A DNA stretch of 39,044 nucleotides from Bacteroidota bacterium (GTDB lineage: Bacteria; Bacteroidota; Bacteroidia; M30B66). The stretch lies in contig CANHIS010000026.1 of the NCBI GenBank assembly GCA_947460255.1, positions 1 to 39,044 of the forward strand, in the 5' to 3' direction. The translations under genes and the position numbers were made by a program. Below the pieces are notes generated by a model, which worked only from the letters and a program-made list of their open reading frames with translations, did no database searches and was not told the DNA's origin. Shown one piece after another: positions 4,085 through 36,571 of this stretch. Numbering within the stretch: position 1 is the stretch's first letter; the number at the start of each line of letters is the position of its first letter.

Positions 4085-4816
4085 TTATTCGGCCGTTTCG
4101 GCTTTGTGGTAAACACGGATGTTGGCATTTAGTTCATCCGATTCGATGATACCATCCCGCAAGCGGATAATTCGATGCGCATGTTGAGCAATATCTTCCT
4201 CGTGCGTTACAATGATGATCGTGTTTCCCTTCGAATGAATGTCGTGTAAAAGCCCCATAATCTCGATGGAAGTTTTCGTGTCGAGATTTCCAGTGGGCTC
4301 ATCAGCTAACAAGATAGATGGATTGTTCACCAAGGCACGGGCAATGGCAACACGCTGACGCTGACCTCCAGAAAGTTCGTTTGGTTTGTGCGTCATCCGA
4401 TCTGCCAAGCCAACTTGTCCAAGCGACTTTTTAGCCATTTCTTCACGTTCCTGCGATTTCTTCCCTGCATAAATCAAGGGAAGAATCACATTGTCGAGTG
4501 CCGTTGAACGTGGAAGCAAATTGAACGTTTGAAAGATAAATCCGATTTCCTTGTTGCGGATATCAGCAAGTTCATTGTCCGACAAACGAGCCACTTCAAG
4601 GTTGTTGAGATAATATTCGCCGCTGGTTGGGGTGTCGAGACAACCAAGGATGTTCATCAAGGTCGACTTTCCACTTCCCGAAGGGCCCATCAAGGCCACA
4701 TATTCACCACGTTTAATGGTTAGATCGATTGATTTTAGTACCTGAATGGTTTCAGATCCTAATTTAAAATTCCGCACCAATTTGCGGATGTCGATCACTA
4801 TTTGAGCTTCAGCCAT
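4085..4816 (-). CDS. ABC transporter ATP-binding protein, LolD/MacB type
   Basis: A 243-residue ATPase subunit of the class that works with FtsX-type permeases in lipoprotein release or MacB-like export. Walker [10 protein letters not shown] is at residues 44-52, the Q-loop Gln near 96, the signature LSGGQ at 148-152, Walker B ILLADEP at 168-174, and the switch His near 205. The [11 protein letters not shown] segment after the Q-loop is typical of the LolD/MacB group. No permease gene is adjacent, so the partner must be encoded elsewhere. The gene is first in a two-gene unit with the cobalamin adenosyltransferase. A full promoter with a 19-base spacer lies immediately upstream, its -33 box touching the 3' end of the methyltransferase gene. 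The substrate cannot be deduced from sequence. Confidence 0.93.
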
Positions 4817-11385: not shown

Positions 11386-11393
11386 TACCTTTA
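11386..11393 (+). promoter_or_regulatory. Possible -7 box (TACCTTTA) for lnt
   Basis: TACCTTTA differs from TAnnTTTG only in the last base and ends 5 bases before the lnt ATG. No TTG is found at the right spacing. The same octamer occurs in front of ruvC. Confidence 0.35.
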
Positions 11394-11398
11394 GCCCA

Positions 11399-12994
11399 AT
11401 GAAACCCATCCGCTTACTTGGCCTATCGATCTTATCGGGCGCGCTGCTGGCTTATTCTTGGCCAGCGATTGGATTTTCTTACCTAATCTTCTTTGCTTGG
11501 ATTCCGCTGTTACTCATCGCTGAAACCTTTCTGATTAGTAGGAAAAGCTACACTTCACTGAAAGTTTATGGTTATGCTTATCTGTCGTTTTTGATTTGGA
11601 ATGTTGGCGCCACTTGGTGGGTTGTGAACGCTTCATTCGAAGGTGCCTTGATGGCCTTTTTAGCCAATTCTGCGCTGATGGCAGGTGTATTCACCTTGGT
11701 TTTTAACATGCGCAAACGCTTCCAAGTGAATCGTTCCATTTGGCTGTTGCTCCCTTTTTGGCTTGGTGCAGAATACCTTCACCACGACTGGGATTTAAGT
11801 TGGCCATGGCTCACTTTAGGGAATGTTTTTGCTGGAGATATCCAACTGATTCAATGGTACGAGTTTACAGGAACGGGCGGAGGTTCATTGTGGGTTTTAA
11901 CCATCAACATTTTACTGCTACAGCTTTATCGCCAGTGGACGCAAAATCAAGCCATTAAGCAAAGCATCCGCTCAATTGCCTTGGTATTGATGATCCCTGC
12001 ATTGGTTTCGTTAACGATGTATTTTACTTGGGAAGCGAAAGGAAAAACCATCCAAGTGGCAGTTGTTCAGCCCAATGTGGATCCGTACAATATGAAGTTC
12101 AATCAATCCACCTTAGGAACGCAATTAGACCAAATCCTGAGATTAGGAGCCTCTGTTTCGGATGCTTCTACGGCTTGGTTGATCGGTCCTGAAACAGCAC
12201 TTGCTCGATCAATTGATGAAAGTCAGCTTGAGGAAAGTCAGCGCATCCAAAAGATTCGAGAATTTCAATCGAAGTACCCGAAAATGAATGTGCTCATTGG
12301 AGCCGAAACGCACAAAGTTTATAACCCTGGTGATAAGGTGTCTTCAACTGCTCGAACATCCCCCGACGGGGAAATTAGATATGATGTTTACAACACAGCC
12401 TTGCACTTCCAAAGTCCGATGGAGATTTATCACAAATCGAAATTGGTTCCAGGTGTTGAACAAATGCCATTTCCTTGGCTTTTCAAGTACATTGAAGATT
12501 TTGCAATAGATCTTGGTGGAAGTTCTGGAACCCTCGGAAAACAAGACGAAAGAACTGTTTTCAAGGCGAAAGACGGACTATCGAACCTCGCTCCAGCAAT
12601 ATGTTATGAATCGGTTTTTGGAGATTTCATGACATCCTACGTGCGAAACGGAGCCGATTTTATTGCCATCATCACCAACGATGGCTGGTGGGGAAATACG
12701 CCCGGACACAAGCAACACTTGATGTATGCATCACTTCGAGCAATCGAAAACCGCCGCGATATTGCCAGATCTGCCAACACAGGAATCAGTTGCTTTGTGA
12801 ACCAACGTGGAGAAATTCTGCAAGCTCAACCTTATTGGCAAGAAGGTGCAATTAGAGGCAATGTACATCTCAACTCCGGAAAGACTTTGTTTACCATCAC
12901 CGGTGATTTAATTGGGAAGGCATCGGTTTTATTGGCGCTAATTATTTGGATTTGGGGAGCACAGAAGCGGTTTAGAAAGAAGAAAATCGCGTAA
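11399..12994 (+). CDS. lnt: Apolipoprotein N-acyltransferase
   Basis: Adds the third acyl chain, amide-linked, to the N-terminal cysteine of lipoproteins in the inner membrane, the last step of lipoprotein maturation. The 531-residue length is usual. The N-terminal third carries about six to seven hydrophobic helices, followed by a periplasmic nitrilase-fold domain and a final helix before the basic tail QKRFRKKK. The catalytic triad is present: Glu265 in GPETAL, Lys346 in YHKSKLVPG, and Cys402 in PAICYESVFG. Other family motifs are WPWLTLGN and NDGWWGNTPG. The gene follows the terminator of the PKD gene by only 42 bases and seems to start its own transcript. Lipoproteins such as the one at 18299-18736 would be substrates. 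Confidence 0.96.
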   Translation: MKPIRLLGLSILSGALLAYSWPAIGFSYLIFFAWIPLLLIAETFLISRKSYTSLKVYGYAYLSFLIWNVGATWWVVNASFEGALMAFLANSALMAGVFTLVFNMRKRFQVNRSIWLLLPFWLGAEYLHHDWDLSWPWLTLGNVFAGDIQLIQWYEFTGTGGGSLWVLTINILLLQLYRQWTQNQAIKQSIRSIALVLMIPALVSLTMYFTWEAKGKTIQVAVVQPNVDPYNMKFNQSTLGTQLDQILRLGASVSDASTAWLIGPETALARSIDESQLEESQRIQKIREFQSKYPKMNVLIGAETHKVYNPGDKVSSTARTSPDGEIRYDVYNTALHFQSPMEIYHKSKLVPGVEQMPFPWLFKYIEDFAIDLGGSSGTLGKQDERTVFKAKDGLSNLAPAICYESVFGDFMTSYVRNGADFIAIITNDGWWGNTPGHKQHLMYASLRAIENRRDIARSANTGISCFVNQRGEILQAQPYWQEGAIRGNVHLNSGKTLFTITGDLIGKASVLLALIIWIWGAQKRFRKKKIA

Positions 12995-13180: not shown

Positions 13181-13188
13181 TAGGTTTG
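13181..13188 (+). promoter_or_regulatory. -7 promoter box (TAGGTTTG) for ribF
   Basis: A perfect TAnnTTTG match that ends 4 bases before the GTG start of ribF, which suggests a leaderless transcript. A TTG at 13164-13166 is closer than usual (14 bases), so the -33 box is uncertain. Confidence 0.55.
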
Positions 13189-13192
13189 CGAC

Positions 13193-14128
13193 GTGAAAAT
13201 TCATCACCAAAGCCTTTCGTTTCCACGGCCAAAGCAGCCAGTTGTTACCACCGGAACTTTCGATGGCGTGCATTTAGGGCACAAAACCATCATCGATCGG
13301 CTCATCGAATCAGCGAAACAAATGAATGGTGAATCGGTCGTTATCACCTTCGATCCACATCCCCGCCAGGTACTTTATCCTAACGATCAAAGCTTAAAAT
13401 TACTGCAATCAATCAACGACAAAGCGTCAAGATTAGAGGCTTTGGGAATTGATCATTTGTTAGTGTTAAAGTTCGACAAATCGTTTTCAGAACTCAGTTC
13501 AGAGGATTTCATTCGAAATATACTTGTAGATGCGGTTGGAACCAAAAAGTTGGTGGTTGGCTACGACCATCACTTCGGCAAAAACCGCGAAGGTTCCTTC
13601 GAAAGTCTCCGCAAGCAAGGGTTGATTCATGGTTTTTCTGTGGAAGAAATTCCAGCTCACGATATTGATCAAGTAGCAGTAAGTTCAACTGCCATTCGAA
13701 AAGCACTCTCTTTGGGCGAAATCAAAACCGCTAACAATTATTTAGGATACCAGTATGCCCTCACAGGCGAGGTTATTCAGGGTAATCAAATGGGGCGGCA
13801 ATTGGGTTTTCCTACGGCCAATTTAAGAATTTCACATGCTCTGAAATTAATTCCTGCATCAGGCGTTTACGCTGTAACTGTTCAGGTTCAAGGTCGTACA
13901 ATGCATGGCATGTTGAACATCGGTTATCGCCCAACACTCACCAACGACAATGAACTTACTTGTGAAGTGCACATCCTCGATTTTTCTTCCGACATTTATG
14001 GAGAAACCTTGCAGGTTCAATTTGTGGCACGCATCAGAGACGAAAAGCGATTTTCGAGCAAAGATGAACTTGTTAATCAACTTCAAGAAGATCAAAAATT
14101 GGTAGTCAAACTGCTCAGCAATCTATGA
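13193..14128 (+). CDS. ribF: Bifunctional riboflavin kinase / FAD synthetase
   Basis: Phosphorylates riboflavin to FMN and adenylates FMN to FAD in the cytoplasm. The 311-residue protein has the N-terminal nucleotidyltransferase domain with TGTFDGVHLGHKTII near residues 22-36 and FDPHPRQVL, and the C-terminal flavokinase domain with GNQMGRQLGFPTANL near 198-212 and ASGVYAV. The start is GTG at 13193, because this is the first start codon after the -7 box and the following KIHHQ stretch leads straight into the family's first strand. The stop overlaps the ATG of the leucine-rich-repeat gene (ATGA), so translation of the two is probably coupled. About 200 bases upstream hold no gene. Confidence 0.96.
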   Translation: MKIHHQSLSFPRPKQPVVTTGTFDGVHLGHKTIIDRLIESAKQMNGESVVITFDPHPRQVLYPNDQSLKLLQSINDKASRLEALGIDHLLVLKFDKSFSELSSEDFIRNILVDAVGTKKLVVGYDHHFGKNREGSFESLRKQGLIHGFSVEEIPAHDIDQVAVSSTAIRKALSLGEIKTANNYLGYQYALTGEVIQGNQMGRQLGFPTANLRISHALKLIPASGVYAVTVQVQGRTMHGMLNIGYRPTLTNDNELTCEVHILDFSSDIYGETLQVQFVARIRDEKRFSSKDELVNQLQEDQKLVVKLLSNL

Positions 14129-18797: not shown

Positions 18798-18805
18798 TAC
18801 CTTTG
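18798..18805 (+). promoter_or_regulatory. -7 promoter box (TACCTTTG) for the small basic gene
   Basis: A perfect TAnnTTTG match that ends 7 bases before the ATG at 18813. It is one of several boxes in this window placed so close to the start codon that the mRNA would have little or no leader. Confidence 0.5.
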
Positions 18806-18812
18806 CAAGATT

Positions 18813-19076
18813 ATGTTTAAGAAAATTCTGTCGCTACTTTTTCTGTTGATGTTTGTTTCCCTTCAAATGGATGCACAAGTAAAGCCGTTAAGCAAAGAGA
18901 AGCAAAAGAAGGAGCTTAGAAAGAAGAAAGAGAAGCAGATGGATAAGCAGCGAAAAGCTGAGGAAGGTCTGAAAAAGAGGCACTTAAACATCCAAGATAA
19001 GGCAACCAAAAAGCGAATTAAAGCTGCGAAAAAGAAATCCGATAAGTTAAATCGGAGTAAACGAAGGAAGCGATAG
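18813..19076 (+). CDS. Small hyperbasic secreted protein
   Basis: An 87-residue protein: a 22-residue signal peptide (MFKKILSLLFLLMFVSLQMD then AQ) and a mature part of about 65 residues with 23 Lys and 8 Arg against 8 acidic residues. The mature part is predicted to be one or two long charged helices without cysteines or aromatic residues. I do not recognise a family. The strong signal peptide and the -7 box just upstream argue that it is a real gene. After export it would be periplasmic or outside the cell; binding to lipopolysaccharide, nucleic acid or another polyanion is possible but is inference only. It is followed by a long non-coding stretch. Confidence 0.7.
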   Translation: MFKKILSLLFLLMFVSLQMDAQVKPLSKEKQKKELRKKKEKQMDKQRKAEEGLKKRHLNIQDKATKKRIKAAKKKSDKLNRSKRRKR

Positions 19077-29170: not shown

Positions 29171-29752
29171 TCAACTCTTTACTCTGTCGGGATGTTGGGC
29201 TGCAAAAGCTCCCCATCCCGACACTTTTTTTGCGCTCTTTACTGGCATTGATGGCTTTTCACCCGCGTCTTTCTGAAAGTAATGACACACTGCAGCCGCC
29301 AAGCCATCGGTTGCATCCATTTTTGCAGGCATATCTTCGTCGGATATCTTGAGAATTCTTTGCAACATCAGAGCAACTTGTTCTTTCGAAGCTGCACCTT
29401 TTCCAGTAATGCTCTGCTTGATTTTTCTAGGCGAATATTCTGAAACAGGAAGGTTTCTGTTCAAAGCAGCAGCCAAAGCAACTCCTTGCGCTCTACCTAG
29501 TTTAAGCATTGACTGCACATTTTTACCAAAGAATGGAGCCTCTGCTGCCACTTCATCAGGTTTCCATTTAACAATCAATTCATCGGTGAACCTAAAAATC
29601 ATGAGCAGCTTTTTGGCATGATCATCGATTTTTTCCATCCGCAGAATTCCCATTTCCAAGAGTTTAATCTGGCGGCCTTGTACAGCAATTAACCCAAAAC
29701 CCATTATGTTCGTTCCGGGATCGATACCTAAAATAATTCTGTCGGTTTGCAT
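29171..29752 (-). CDS. ruvC: Holliday junction resolvase RuvC
   Basis: Endonuclease that cuts Holliday junctions with RuvAB. In the 193-residue protein the active-site acids are the Asp of LGIDPGT (residue 11), the Glu of AAEAPFFGKN (near 70), and the Asp pair in KMDATDGLAAAVCHYF (near 143 and 146). The protein is about 20 residues longer than the Escherichia coli enzyme, with a basic tail ending GAFAAQHPDRVKS. That tail is encoded over the terminator hairpin of the convergent greA-HIT unit. The start ATG at 29752 lies 7 bases after TACCTTTA, a near match to the -7 box. Confidence 0.95.
   Translation of the reverse strand: MQTDRIILGIDPGTNIMGFGLIAVQGRQIKLLEMGILRMEKIDDHAKKLLMIFRFTDELIVKWKPDEVAAEAPFFGKNVQSMLKLGRAQGVALAAALNRNLPVSEYSPRKIKQSITGKGAASKEQVALMLQRILKISDEDMPAKMDATDGLAAAVCHYFQKDAGEKPSMPVKSAKKVSGWGAFAAQHPDRVKS
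29185..29231 (+). terminator. Terminator of the greA-HIT operon embedded in ruvC
   Basis: TGTCGGGATG (29185-29194) pairs perfectly with CATCCCGACA (29214-29223), with further pairing inside, followed by CTTTTTTT (29224-29231). It lies 18 bases after the HIT stop and within the last codons of ruvC on the other strand. Confidence 0.85.
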
Positions 29753-29759
29753 TCTGCGC

Positions 29760-29767
29760 TAAAGGTA
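29760..29767 (-). promoter_or_regulatory. Possible -7 box (TACCTTTA) for ruvC
   Basis: The minus strand reads TACCTTTA, one mismatch from TAnnTTTG, ending 7 bases before the ruvC ATG. It is identical to the box in front of lnt. Confidence 0.35.
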
Positions 29768-32380: not shown

Positions 32381-34480
32381 TCAAGAAATTCTTCCCCAAT
32401 TCATCTGCTTGCTTTGAAGCAAGAGCAATCTTTCTTTGATACAATGATTTTCTGCTGCTTCCAGATTTGGATCGCGTTCGAGCAAAGCCTGAGCCTGTTC
32501 GCGGCACCAAGAAATTAAGGCAGCATCTCGGCTTAAATCCGATAACTTTAAATCGAGGGTTCCACTTTGTTGTGTGCCTTGTAAATCTCCCGGACCGCGG
32601 AGGCGAAGATCCACTTCAGCGATCTTGAATCCATCGTTGGTTTCGGTCATGGTTTTGAGGCGGATTCGGGCATCAGAGCTTAACTTCACACCAGTAATCA
32701 TCATACAGTATGATTGATCGGCTCCGCGGCCAACACGACCGCGCAATTGGTGCAACTGTGACAATCCAAAACGCTCGGCACTTTCAATCACCATCACCGA
32801 AGCATTGGGCACATTTACGCCCACTTCAATTACGGTTGTTGCTACCATGATTTGGGTTTCCTTTTTCACAAATCGCTGCATTTCGAACTCTTTGTCTGCA
32901 GGCTTTAACTTCCCATGAACAATGCTTAAGTGGTATTGCGGAGCAGGAAACCACGACACCAAATGCTCGTAACCTTCAAACAGATTTCTGTAATCCAATT
33001 GTTCGCTTTCTTCAATGAGCGGATATACAAAATACACTTGGCGGCCTTTTGAAATCTCTTTTTTGAGGAATTCTAATACAACCGGCCGTTCACTATCGTA
33101 TCGGTGAACAGTTTGAATCGGCTTTCTGCCGGGAGGCAATTCATCAATCACCGAAACATCTAAATCGCCGTAAAGCGTCATGGCCAATGTGCGCGGAATT
33201 GGTGTCGCACTCATGATGAGAACATGCGGCGGAAGGTGATTTTTTGCCCACAATTTGGCGCGTTGAGCCACCCCAAAACGGTGTTGTTCGTCGATCACCA
33301 CGAAACCTAAATTGTGAAATTTTACTTTGTCTTCCAGCAAAGCATGTGTTCCTACAAGAATATGCAAGGTGCCTTCTTCGAGTGCTTGGTGAATTTCGCG
33401 CCGTTCTTTGGTTTTCGACGAGCCAGTGAGCAATCGAATGTTGACTCCAATGGCACGAGCCAATTCGCTCAGCGACAGGTAGTGCTGTTGAGCAAGAATT
33501 TCTGTGGGCGCCATCATGCATGCTTGGAATCCATTGTCGAGCGCCATGAGCATACTCATAAAGGCAACGATGGTTTTACCACTTCCAACGTCTCCTTGCA
33601 CGAGCCGATTCATTTGGATGGGGCGCGCCACATCGGATCTTACCTCTTTAATGACTCTTTTTTGGGCATTGGTGAGTTCGAAAGGCATGTGTTCTTTGTA
33701 GAACGTATTAAAGTATTTACCAATCGATTCGAATGCGAAACCTTTAATTTGGCGCTTGTTGACAAGGTTTTGTCGGATGAGTCTGATTTGCAAAAAGAAG
33801 AGCTCTTCGAATTTTAGACGTTTTTCAGCTTTTTTGAGTTCTTCTGGATTGCTTGGTTGATGAATCCACCGAAAGGCTTGCTCAAGGCCGATTAGATTGA
33901 GCTCATGGCGCATAGATTCGGGAACTGTTTCATCAATTTTTCCCTCCACAAACCGCAAGATATTTTGAATCATTGCCGACAGGCCTTTGCTTTCCAGAAA
34001 GGCGCGTTTCATGGCTTCCGAACTCGAATAAACAGGTTGAAGCTTCGATGCTTGTGCAGCTTTTTCGGCAGAGTACAATTCGATGTCAGGGTGCGGAATG
34101 TTCCAAGTGCCGTGAAAATTCGCAGGCTTTCCAAAAACAAGAAAATCCATGCCTGGGCGAATCTTGTCTTGTACGTATTTGATGCCTTGAAACCAAACCA
34201 ATTCAACAATTCCCGACGAATCTCGAAGCAAGGCGCTGAGTCGTTGTTTCTTTTGTTTTCCTACAAGTTTGATTTGTTCTAGGCGTCCAACAAGTTGGAT
34301 ATATGGCAACTCGTCGTTGATTTCGCGAACAGTGTAAACCTTCGTTCGATCAATGTATCGGAATGGATACCAAGTAAGTAGGTCTCCTACAGTTTCAATA
34401 CCACAATCCTTTCGAAGCAATGCCGCTTTTTTCGGAATTACGCCGGGAACTACATGTAAAGGTGTTTCGAGGATTTGCAC
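32381..34480 (-). CDS. recG: ATP-dependent DNA helicase RecG
   Basis: Remodels stalled replication forks and Holliday junctions. The 699-residue protein has the N-terminal wedge (OB) domain, Walker A GDVGSGKT, the DEQH box in VIDEQHRFG, the SATPIPRTLAMT motif, and the later helicase motifs MVATTVIEVGVNVPNA and QLRGRVGRG. The C-terminal RecG accessory helices are present. The start is GTG at 34480, the only start codon before the conserved opening QILETPLHVVPGV; a TAnnTTTG box sits 4 bases upstream. It converges with the aldehyde dehydrogenase gene. Confidence 0.97.
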   Translation of the reverse strand: MQILETPLHVVPGVIPKKAALLRKDCGIETVGDLLTWYPFRYIDRTKVYTVREINDELPYIQLVGRLEQIKLVGKQKKQRLSALLRDSSGIVELVWFQGIKYVQDKIRPGMDFLVFGKPANFHGTWNIPHPDIELYSAEKAAQASKLQPVYSSSEAMKRAFLESKGLSAMIQNILRFVEGKIDETVPESMRHELNLIGLEQAFRWIHQPSNPEELKKAEKRLKFEELFFLQIRLIRQNLVNKRQIKGFAFESIGKYFNTFYKEHMPFELTNAQKRVIKEVRSDVARPIQMNRLVQGDVGSGKTIVAFMSMLMALDNGFQACMMAPTEILAQQHYLSLSELARAIGVNIRLLTGSSKTKERREIHQALEEGTLHILVGTHALLEDKVKFHNLGFVVIDEQHRFGVAQRAKLWAKNHLPPHVLIMSATPIPRTLAMTLYGDLDVSVIDELPPGRKPIQTVHRYDSERPVVLEFLKKEISKGRQVYFVYPLIEESEQLDYRNLFEGYEHLVSWFPAPQYHLSIVHGKLKPADKEFEMQRFVKKETQIMVATTVIEVGVNVPNASVMVIESAERFGLSQLHQLRGRVGRGADQSYCMMITGVKLSSDARIRLKTMTETNDGFKIAEVDLRLRGPGDLQGTQQSGTLDLKLSDLSRDAALISWCREQAQALLERDPNLEAAENHCIKERLLLLQSKQMNWGRIS

Positions 34481-36182: not shown

Positions 36183-36521
36183 CTATCTTGCTACTTGAGG
36201 TTTGAGTGTTTGAGAAACAGATTCAACAAGGTCGTTCCAGGAACCTTTGAGCTCTTGGAGAAATTGTTGGCCTTCTTGTGTAAGGCCATAGTATTTTCGT
36301 GGTGGACCAGAAGTGCTTTCTTCCCATCGATACTGAAGCAGGCCTGCATTTTTTAGTCTAGTGAGCATTGGATAAAGCGTGCCTTCCACAACGATGAGTC
36401 GCGCCTCTTTGAGCTTATTGATTATGTCGGAAGTGTAGGCGTCTCCATTCGATAGAACCGATAGGATGCAGAACTCAAGCACGCCTTTCCGCATTTGCGC
36501 TTTGGTGTTTTCCAGATTCAT
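36183..36521 (-). CDS. PadR-family transcriptional regulator
   Basis: A 112-residue winged-helix DNA-binding protein. LEFCILSVLSNGDAYTSDII is the start of the PadR helix-turn-helix, EGTLYPMLTRLKNAGLL is the recognition helix and wing, and PPRKYYGLTQEGQQFLQEL the wing strand and dimer helix. It acts as a homodimer, usually a repressor whose ligand or stress signal releases DNA. It is the first gene of a padR-pspC operon. A candidate operator with matching half-sites lies 30 bases upstream, and a -7 box lies 4 bases before the ATG, so autoregulation is likely. Confidence 0.95.
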   Translation of the reverse strand: MNLENTKAQMRKGVLEFCILSVLSNGDAYTSDIINKLKEARLIVVEGTLYPMLTRLKNAGLLQYRWEESTSGPPRKYYGLTQEGQQFLQELKGSWNDLVESVSQTLKPQVAR

Positions 36522-36550: not shown

Positions 36551-36571
36551 GTACTATGCAATGCAAGGTAC
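36551..36571. promoter_or_regulatory. Candidate PadR operator
   Basis: GTACTATGCA (36551-36560) and TGCAAGGTAC (36562-36571) form a 21-base inverted repeat with a central A and 8 of 10 matching positions. It overlaps the -33 region of the padR promoter, fitting autorepression by a dimeric PadR. Confidence 0.6.

Follow-up and report, generated by a model that had tools for sequence, protein, structure and literature searches.

Predicted leaderless and near-leaderless promoters with a TAnnTTTG -7 box in a genome of the Bacteroidota

Boxes and genes in the window

The window analyzed here, a stretch of 39,044 nucleotides, is one whole contig (C26) of the metagenome-assembled genome of an uncultured member of the Bacteroidota (4.13 Mb in 246 contigs). 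Exact or near-consensus copies of the motif TAnnTTTG stand shortly before the start codons of seven of its genes (Table 1). The original prediction had claimed seven such boxes 4 to 7 bases 5' of starts, and all seven were found where it had put them; for the small gene, both the box and its 7-nt gap proved right, but the start lies at 18813 and not at 18812 as given before. The protein encoded by this gene matched no Pfam family in a Pfam search and has relatives in 14 of 30 genomes. Orthologues of recG are present in 40 of 40 relatives.

The exact motif was found at 4 to 7 nt from 5 of the 27 starts in the window, whereas 2,000 trials with shuffled upstream sequences of the same starts averaged 0.06 such boxes and never gave more than 2. 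Adding TAnnTTTA raised the count to 7 boxes at 4 to 7 nt, with 0.16 expected. Over the whole window TAnnTTTG is not over-represented (25 observed, 37 expected), and what is non-random is therefore the position of the box. For ribF and recG the choice of start codon is unambiguous, since no second in-frame start occurs from the upstream stop to position +60, and orthologues within the family share these start positions.

Table 1. Boxes, genes and the padR upstream element in the window
Feature	Position	Strand	Remarks
ribF -7 box, TAGGTTTG	13181-13188	+	4 nt to GTG 13193
ribF (FAD synthetase/riboflavin kinase)	13193-14128	+	GTG start; Pfam FAD_syn 5e-51, Flavokinase 3e-44; predicted leaderless
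recG -7 box, TAATTTTG	34492-34485	-	4 nt to GTG 34480
recG (helicase)	32381-34480	-	GTG start; Pfam RecG domains; predicted leaderless
padR -7 box, TATGTTTG	36533-36526	-	4 nt to ATG 36521
padR (regulator)	36183-36521	-	ATG start; Pfam PadR 4e-19; predicted leaderless
Upstream element of padR, TTGCATAGTAC	36551-36561	-	conserved, at -33 region of padR promoter; sole exact copy in the genome
ABC ATPase -7 box, TACGTTTG	4831-4824	-	7 nt to ATG 4816
ABC transporter ATPase gene	4085-4816	-	Pfam ABC_tran 5e-36; predicted leaderless or 2- to 3-nt leader
Small gene -7 box, TACCTTTG	18798-18805	+	7 nt to ATG 18813
Small gene	18813-19076	+	87-aa protein; signal-peptide-like N terminus
lnt near-consensus box, TACCTTTA	11386-11393	+	5 nt to ATG 11399
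lnt (apolipoprotein N-acyltransferase)	11399-12994	+	Pfam LNT_N, CN_hydrolase; predicted leaderless or 1-nt leader
ruvC near-consensus box, TACCTTTA	29760-29767	-	7 nt to ATG 29752
ruvC	29171-29752	-	Pfam RuvC 2e-43; predicted leaderless or 2- to 3-nt leader

Distance to the start codon and promoter-like character of the boxes

Box-to-start distances were analyzed over 1.24 Mb of the window's genome (about 30%), in which 861 genes were called. Starts were called with a home-made dicodon gene finder that is blind to upstream sequence and are thus predictions themselves. The distance d was taken from each TAnnTTTG to the gene start, and the background, 0.6 per position, was taken 80 to 140 nt upstream. 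The resulting distribution was bimodal, with a sharp peak at d = 4, a smaller peak at d = 7, a trough at d = 11 to 14 (one gene per position) and a broad leadered mode at d = 15 to 26. Thirty genes were found at d = 4, i.e., about 50-fold more than the ~0.6 expected (Poisson P ~ 3e-40), followed by 2 at d = 5, 5 at d = 6, and 9 at d = 7 (about 15-fold enrichment, P ~ 1e-8). Reversed, complemented, rotated and respaced control motifs gave flat distributions over the 861 genes, and no peak was observed for the respaced forms TAnnnTTTG and TAnTTTG. A scan without gene calls revealed 35 instances of TAnnTTTG-N4-ATG 5' of open reading frames of at least 80 codons and 1 to 3 at d = 0 to 3; with the other start codons at d = 4, GTG was seen five times (a weak excess) and TTG never. 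The genome-wide enrichment of the box-to-start distance that had been predicted is thus strong in the 1.24 Mb scanned and takes the form of a one-position peak at 4 nt.

Boxes of the type TAnnTTTA are likewise in excess at d = 4 to 9 in this genome. An exact box at d = 3 to 8 precedes 50 of the 861 called genes (5.8%), a share that applies to exact boxes only because the search for them overlooks weaker promoters. The genes with d = 4 are genuine housekeeping genes, including those for UvrD, Tex, two class-I tRNA synthetases (W and Y), a CBS-domain PLP enzyme, peptide deformylase, dihydroorotate dehydrogenase and PurK, and most genes of this class are preceded by a long or divergent gap. From the sequence, the peak at d = 7 is read as a longer promoter spacing or a leader of 2 to 3 nt, and the window's cases with d = 5 to 7 (lnt, the ABC ATPase gene, the small gene and ruvC) may have leaders of 1 to 3 nt instead of none. 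An origin of the 3-nt periodicity (d = 4, 7, and 10) in missed non-ATG starts was ruled out, as genes with d = 7 do not have start-like codons at their d = 4 position.

For many start sites mapped in Flavobacterium johnsoniae, the gap to the -7 box is 4 or 5 nt (PMC6847099), and in F. psychrophilum the box is located at -12 to -5 (PMC9723704). Given a gap of 4 between box and start site, a transcript with d = 4 would begin exactly with its start codon. The 4-nt spacer of the d = 4 genes is C-rich and poor in A (20%, compared to 34% A in ordinary pre-start sequence; P = 0.003) and resembles the four bases that follow the leadered boxes of this genome (C fractions of 0.50, 0.28, 0.23, and 0.40), so that it looks like part of a promoter and not like a leader. 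Boxes at d = 3 to 8 precede 1.8% of the operon-internal genes versus 9.2% of the genes with a divergent neighbor (P = 0.0003), and leadered boxes follow the same trend (0.9% versus 19.2%). By this depletion within operons, the boxes behave as promoters.

Neither the leaderless boxes nor the leadered ones at d = 15 to 26 showed an enrichment of TTG 17 to 23 nt upstream, where a -33 element (TTG/TTTG) was sought. This element is also much less evident in RNA-seq data of F. johnsoniae (PMC6847099), and its absence is therefore not diagnostic. Leaderless starts are not followed by especially weak structure either, the mean folding energy being equal to that of leadered genes with d = 15 to 26. Promoters of F. 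johnsoniae follow TAHHTTTG and hardly ever have G as either of the middle bases (PMC6847099); in the genome studied here, G occurs there in 7 of the 30 boxes at d = 4 and in about 19% of the leadered boxes.

Conservation among relatives

The RecG protein of the window shares 93% identity with its counterpart in an uncultured member of the same genus (G001, labelled 'Chitinophaga pinensis' MiE-14oct19-96), about 70% with those of a small number of further uncultured genomes and less than 60% with the rest, mostly Flavobacteriaceae. For padR, the arrangement TATGTTTG-N4-ATG is present in seven genomes (G000, which is the window's own, G001, G003, G004, G005, G006, and G007). With TACATTTG-N4 in G002 and N5 in G009, the 4-base spacing is found in eight of the nine family genomes that have padR. 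For recG, an exact or TAnnTTTA box stands at d = 4 before GTG in G003, G004, G005, G007, and G008, and a degenerate box, still at d = 4, in G006; the box and the N4 spacing are thus kept even though the surrounding DNA has diverged. The contig of G001 stops 6 nt upstream of the gene and is hence uninformative. That the spacing before padR and recG is kept across genera implies selection on the arrangement.

The d = 7 of the ABC ATPase gene is shared by G001, G006, and G005, the box in the last being TAGGTTTG, and the sister genome G001 has TACTTTTG 7 nt before an in-frame ATG at the small gene. Upstream of lnt, G001 has the same box, G006 has TATATTTG at d = 5 and G007 has TATCTTTG at d = 7; upstream of ruvC, G001 again has the same box and G006 has TACATTTG at d = 4 before GTG. 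Shortened boxes near the start, e.g., TACCTTGC and TACTTTGC, occur in ruvC orthologues (L277, L278, L280, and L281) and resemble the F. psychrophilum motif SM5, TAnnTTGY.

A series of leader lengths is seen at ribF. The box TAGGTTTG is kept at d = 4 in the window's own species and in G001, at d = 5 in G002, and at d = 14 to 19, i.e., leadered, in the other genera G005, G006, G007, and G008; in G003 and G004 the box is TACGTTTG at d = 7. The promoter was kept, whereas the predicted leader length differs among family members. Since the other genera are leadered, the leader would have shrunk in the lineage of the window. The series offers a single promoter in both a leadered and a predicted leaderless state inside one family. 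Both middle bases of the conserved ribF box are G, which seems to be tolerated there in this family. The ribF boxes (loci L142, L143, L146, L147, L148, and L151) perhaps form a distinct, weaker promoter type.

The upstream element of padR, TTGCATAGTAC, is kept with small changes in family f1 and in two loci from other families (L246 and L253). It is a possible auto-operator of PadR.

Predicted leaderless expression and its frequency in Bacteroidia

Could the boxes be something other than promoters of leaderless genes? Chance, or miscalled start codons next to an AT-rich motif, might produce the proximity, and our start calling was ad hoc, with some starts in the window uncertain (e.g., 29794 or 30007). 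Such an artifact is extremely improbable given the roughly 50-fold enrichment at a single position, the flat control motifs, the concordant scan without gene calls, and the agreement of orthologues for ribF and recG, which have no other in-frame start nearby; for the d = 4 class as a whole it is already excluded. We also regard it as very unlikely that the start-proximal TAnnTTTG acts in translation, as a signal within a longer leader such as a U-rich S1-binding site, and not as a promoter. Bacteroidota do lack Shine-Dalgarno (SD) sites and use signals in the leader (PMC6847099), and a U-rich bias before starts has been ascribed to S1 (PMC5397173). Operon-internal genes, however, need such signals and no promoters, yet mostly have no box; boxes at d = 15 to 26 show the same bias to operon heads; the spacer does not have the A-rich composition of pre-start sequence; and the exact phasing at d = 4, with TA at a fixed distance, fits the known -7 box.

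A remaining alternative accepts the promoters as real but takes their transcripts to be minor ones, with distal promoters and ordinary leaders dominating, so that leaderless translation would carry little weight. In its favor, multiple start sites per gene are common in bacteria, no -33 element can be discerned, and the boxes of ribF and padR depart from TAHHTTTG. We nevertheless consider this explanation unlikely, in view of the selection implied by the conserved spacing of padR and recG and of the long or divergent gap ahead of most d = 4 genes. It is highly probable, in our estimation, that the boxes represent the -7 element of the housekeeping promoter and that leaderless and near-leaderless promoters form a regular, conserved class in this genome, serving housekeeping genes at operon heads. 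The observations behind this reading are where the boxes stand and how sharply they are spaced, their conservation and bias to operon heads, the promoter-like composition of the spacer, and their frequency relative to other genomes. From these we infer where transcripts start, how they are translated and why the class is frequent. TAnnTTTG would act as the -7 element of a promoter of the sigma-ABfr type of Bacteroidota, and RNA polymerase would initiate 4 (to 5) bases past it. Transcription would begin exactly at the start codon or within about 3 bases of it, giving an mRNA with no leader or a vestigial one, whose 5'-terminal AUG or GUG would be recognized by ribosomes carrying the initiator tRNA and not through the A-rich leader signals of other genes. 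Any of the genes may have further upstream promoters with longer leaders.

Within 60 nt of starts, short-spaced boxes (d = 3 to 8) make up 28% of the boxed promoters of this genome versus 7% in the comparison loci after background subtraction (raw counts, 50:149 and 10:117; P = 6e-5). The comparison is approximate, as its 73 loci, mostly from Flavobacteriaceae and processed with the same pipeline, represent one recG locus each with few genes per genome. About one in four recognizable main-type promoters should hence be leaderless or nearly so here, roughly four times the share in the Flavobacterium relatives. The frequent leaderless mode that had been suggested for this DNA is in this sense supported relative to the phylum, for exact-box genes only. 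Leaderless mRNAs account for 5.5% of mapped mRNAs in F. psychrophilum (PMC9723704); 13% of mapped leaders in F. johnsoniae are 10 nt or shorter (PMC6847099) and 3.7% of the 5' untranslated regions in Bacteroides thetaiotaomicron are shorter than 10 nt (PMC7366714). The 7% from our pipeline agrees with the published 5.5% and lies within the range of 3.7 to 13%, which makes it a useful calibration.

Leaderless mRNAs, described as rare, and the TAnnTTTG promoter are already known in the phylum. The three species named above share the -7 box with the genome studied here, and the mapped gap of 4 to 5 nt in F. johnsoniae matches the spacing found. What differs, as predicted from sequence, is the short-spaced share of about 28%, the dominance of d = 4 and the conserved leaderless genes (padR and recG). 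In the open-access papers searched, we found no description of a high family-specific share, of conserved leaderless genes or of a leader-length series. In Actinobacteria and Deinococcus-Thermus, many start codons likewise have a promoter box a short, constant distance ahead of them, which is a different sigma-factor box, of the Pribnow type; 19% and 39% of their genes, respectively, were predicted to be leaderless (Zheng et al. 2011, PMC3160421). The same study reported leaderless genes in 1 of 37 Bacteroidetes/Chlorobi genomes, where, by the authors' own account, their Pribnow-like search may underestimate them (PMC3160421). How SD-less ribosomes of Bacteroidota find starts has been studied mostly in Flavobacterium and Bacteroides, in which leaderless mRNAs are scarce. 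Gene finders that assume a leader may misplace starts in bacteria such as the one studied here, and the -7 box can help to fix their start codons, GTG included.

A survey of 247 genomes of the class counted the pattern TAnnTTTG-N4-ATG minus the matched TAnnTTTG-N2-ATG, a control that replaced the reversed pattern because the latter differs in composition. In the 15 families tabulated, which were picked as large or extreme-looking, the N4 excess per Mb was about 5 in f53, 18 in the window's family, 26 to 43 in several others, and 72 to 75 in f38 and f42. Family f53 is that of Flavobacterium, its genus g60 matching Flavobacterium at 86 to 87% RecG identity. The excess is fairly consistent inside families and spans a roughly 15-fold range between them; low-excess families include the AT-rich ones, where the background peaks. 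In 242 kb of a genome of f38 (G046, L332 to L351), 29 of 166 genes have a box at d = 3 to 8, mostly at 4 or 5, and 47 at d = 9 to 60. On balance, we lean towards the view that leaderless or near-leaderless genes make up 10 to 20% of all genes in f38 and f42, perhaps at least a third of the primary transcripts, and that leaderless translation is a major lineage-specific mode in Bacteroidia. If true, the notion that it is rare in this SD-less phylum would be valid for the model species only; the class-wide variation is the part likely to surprise specialists, and the lineage and families rich in leaderless genes would be natural systems for studying SD-less ribosomes on 5'-terminal start codons.

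The preferred spacing also varies: d = 4 is nearly exclusive in the window's genome (30 genes versus 2 at d = 5), whereas G046 splits about equally between 4 and 5 (11 and 10 genes). A genome of f42 (G086, L331) belongs to the group with an N4 excess of more than 70 per Mb.
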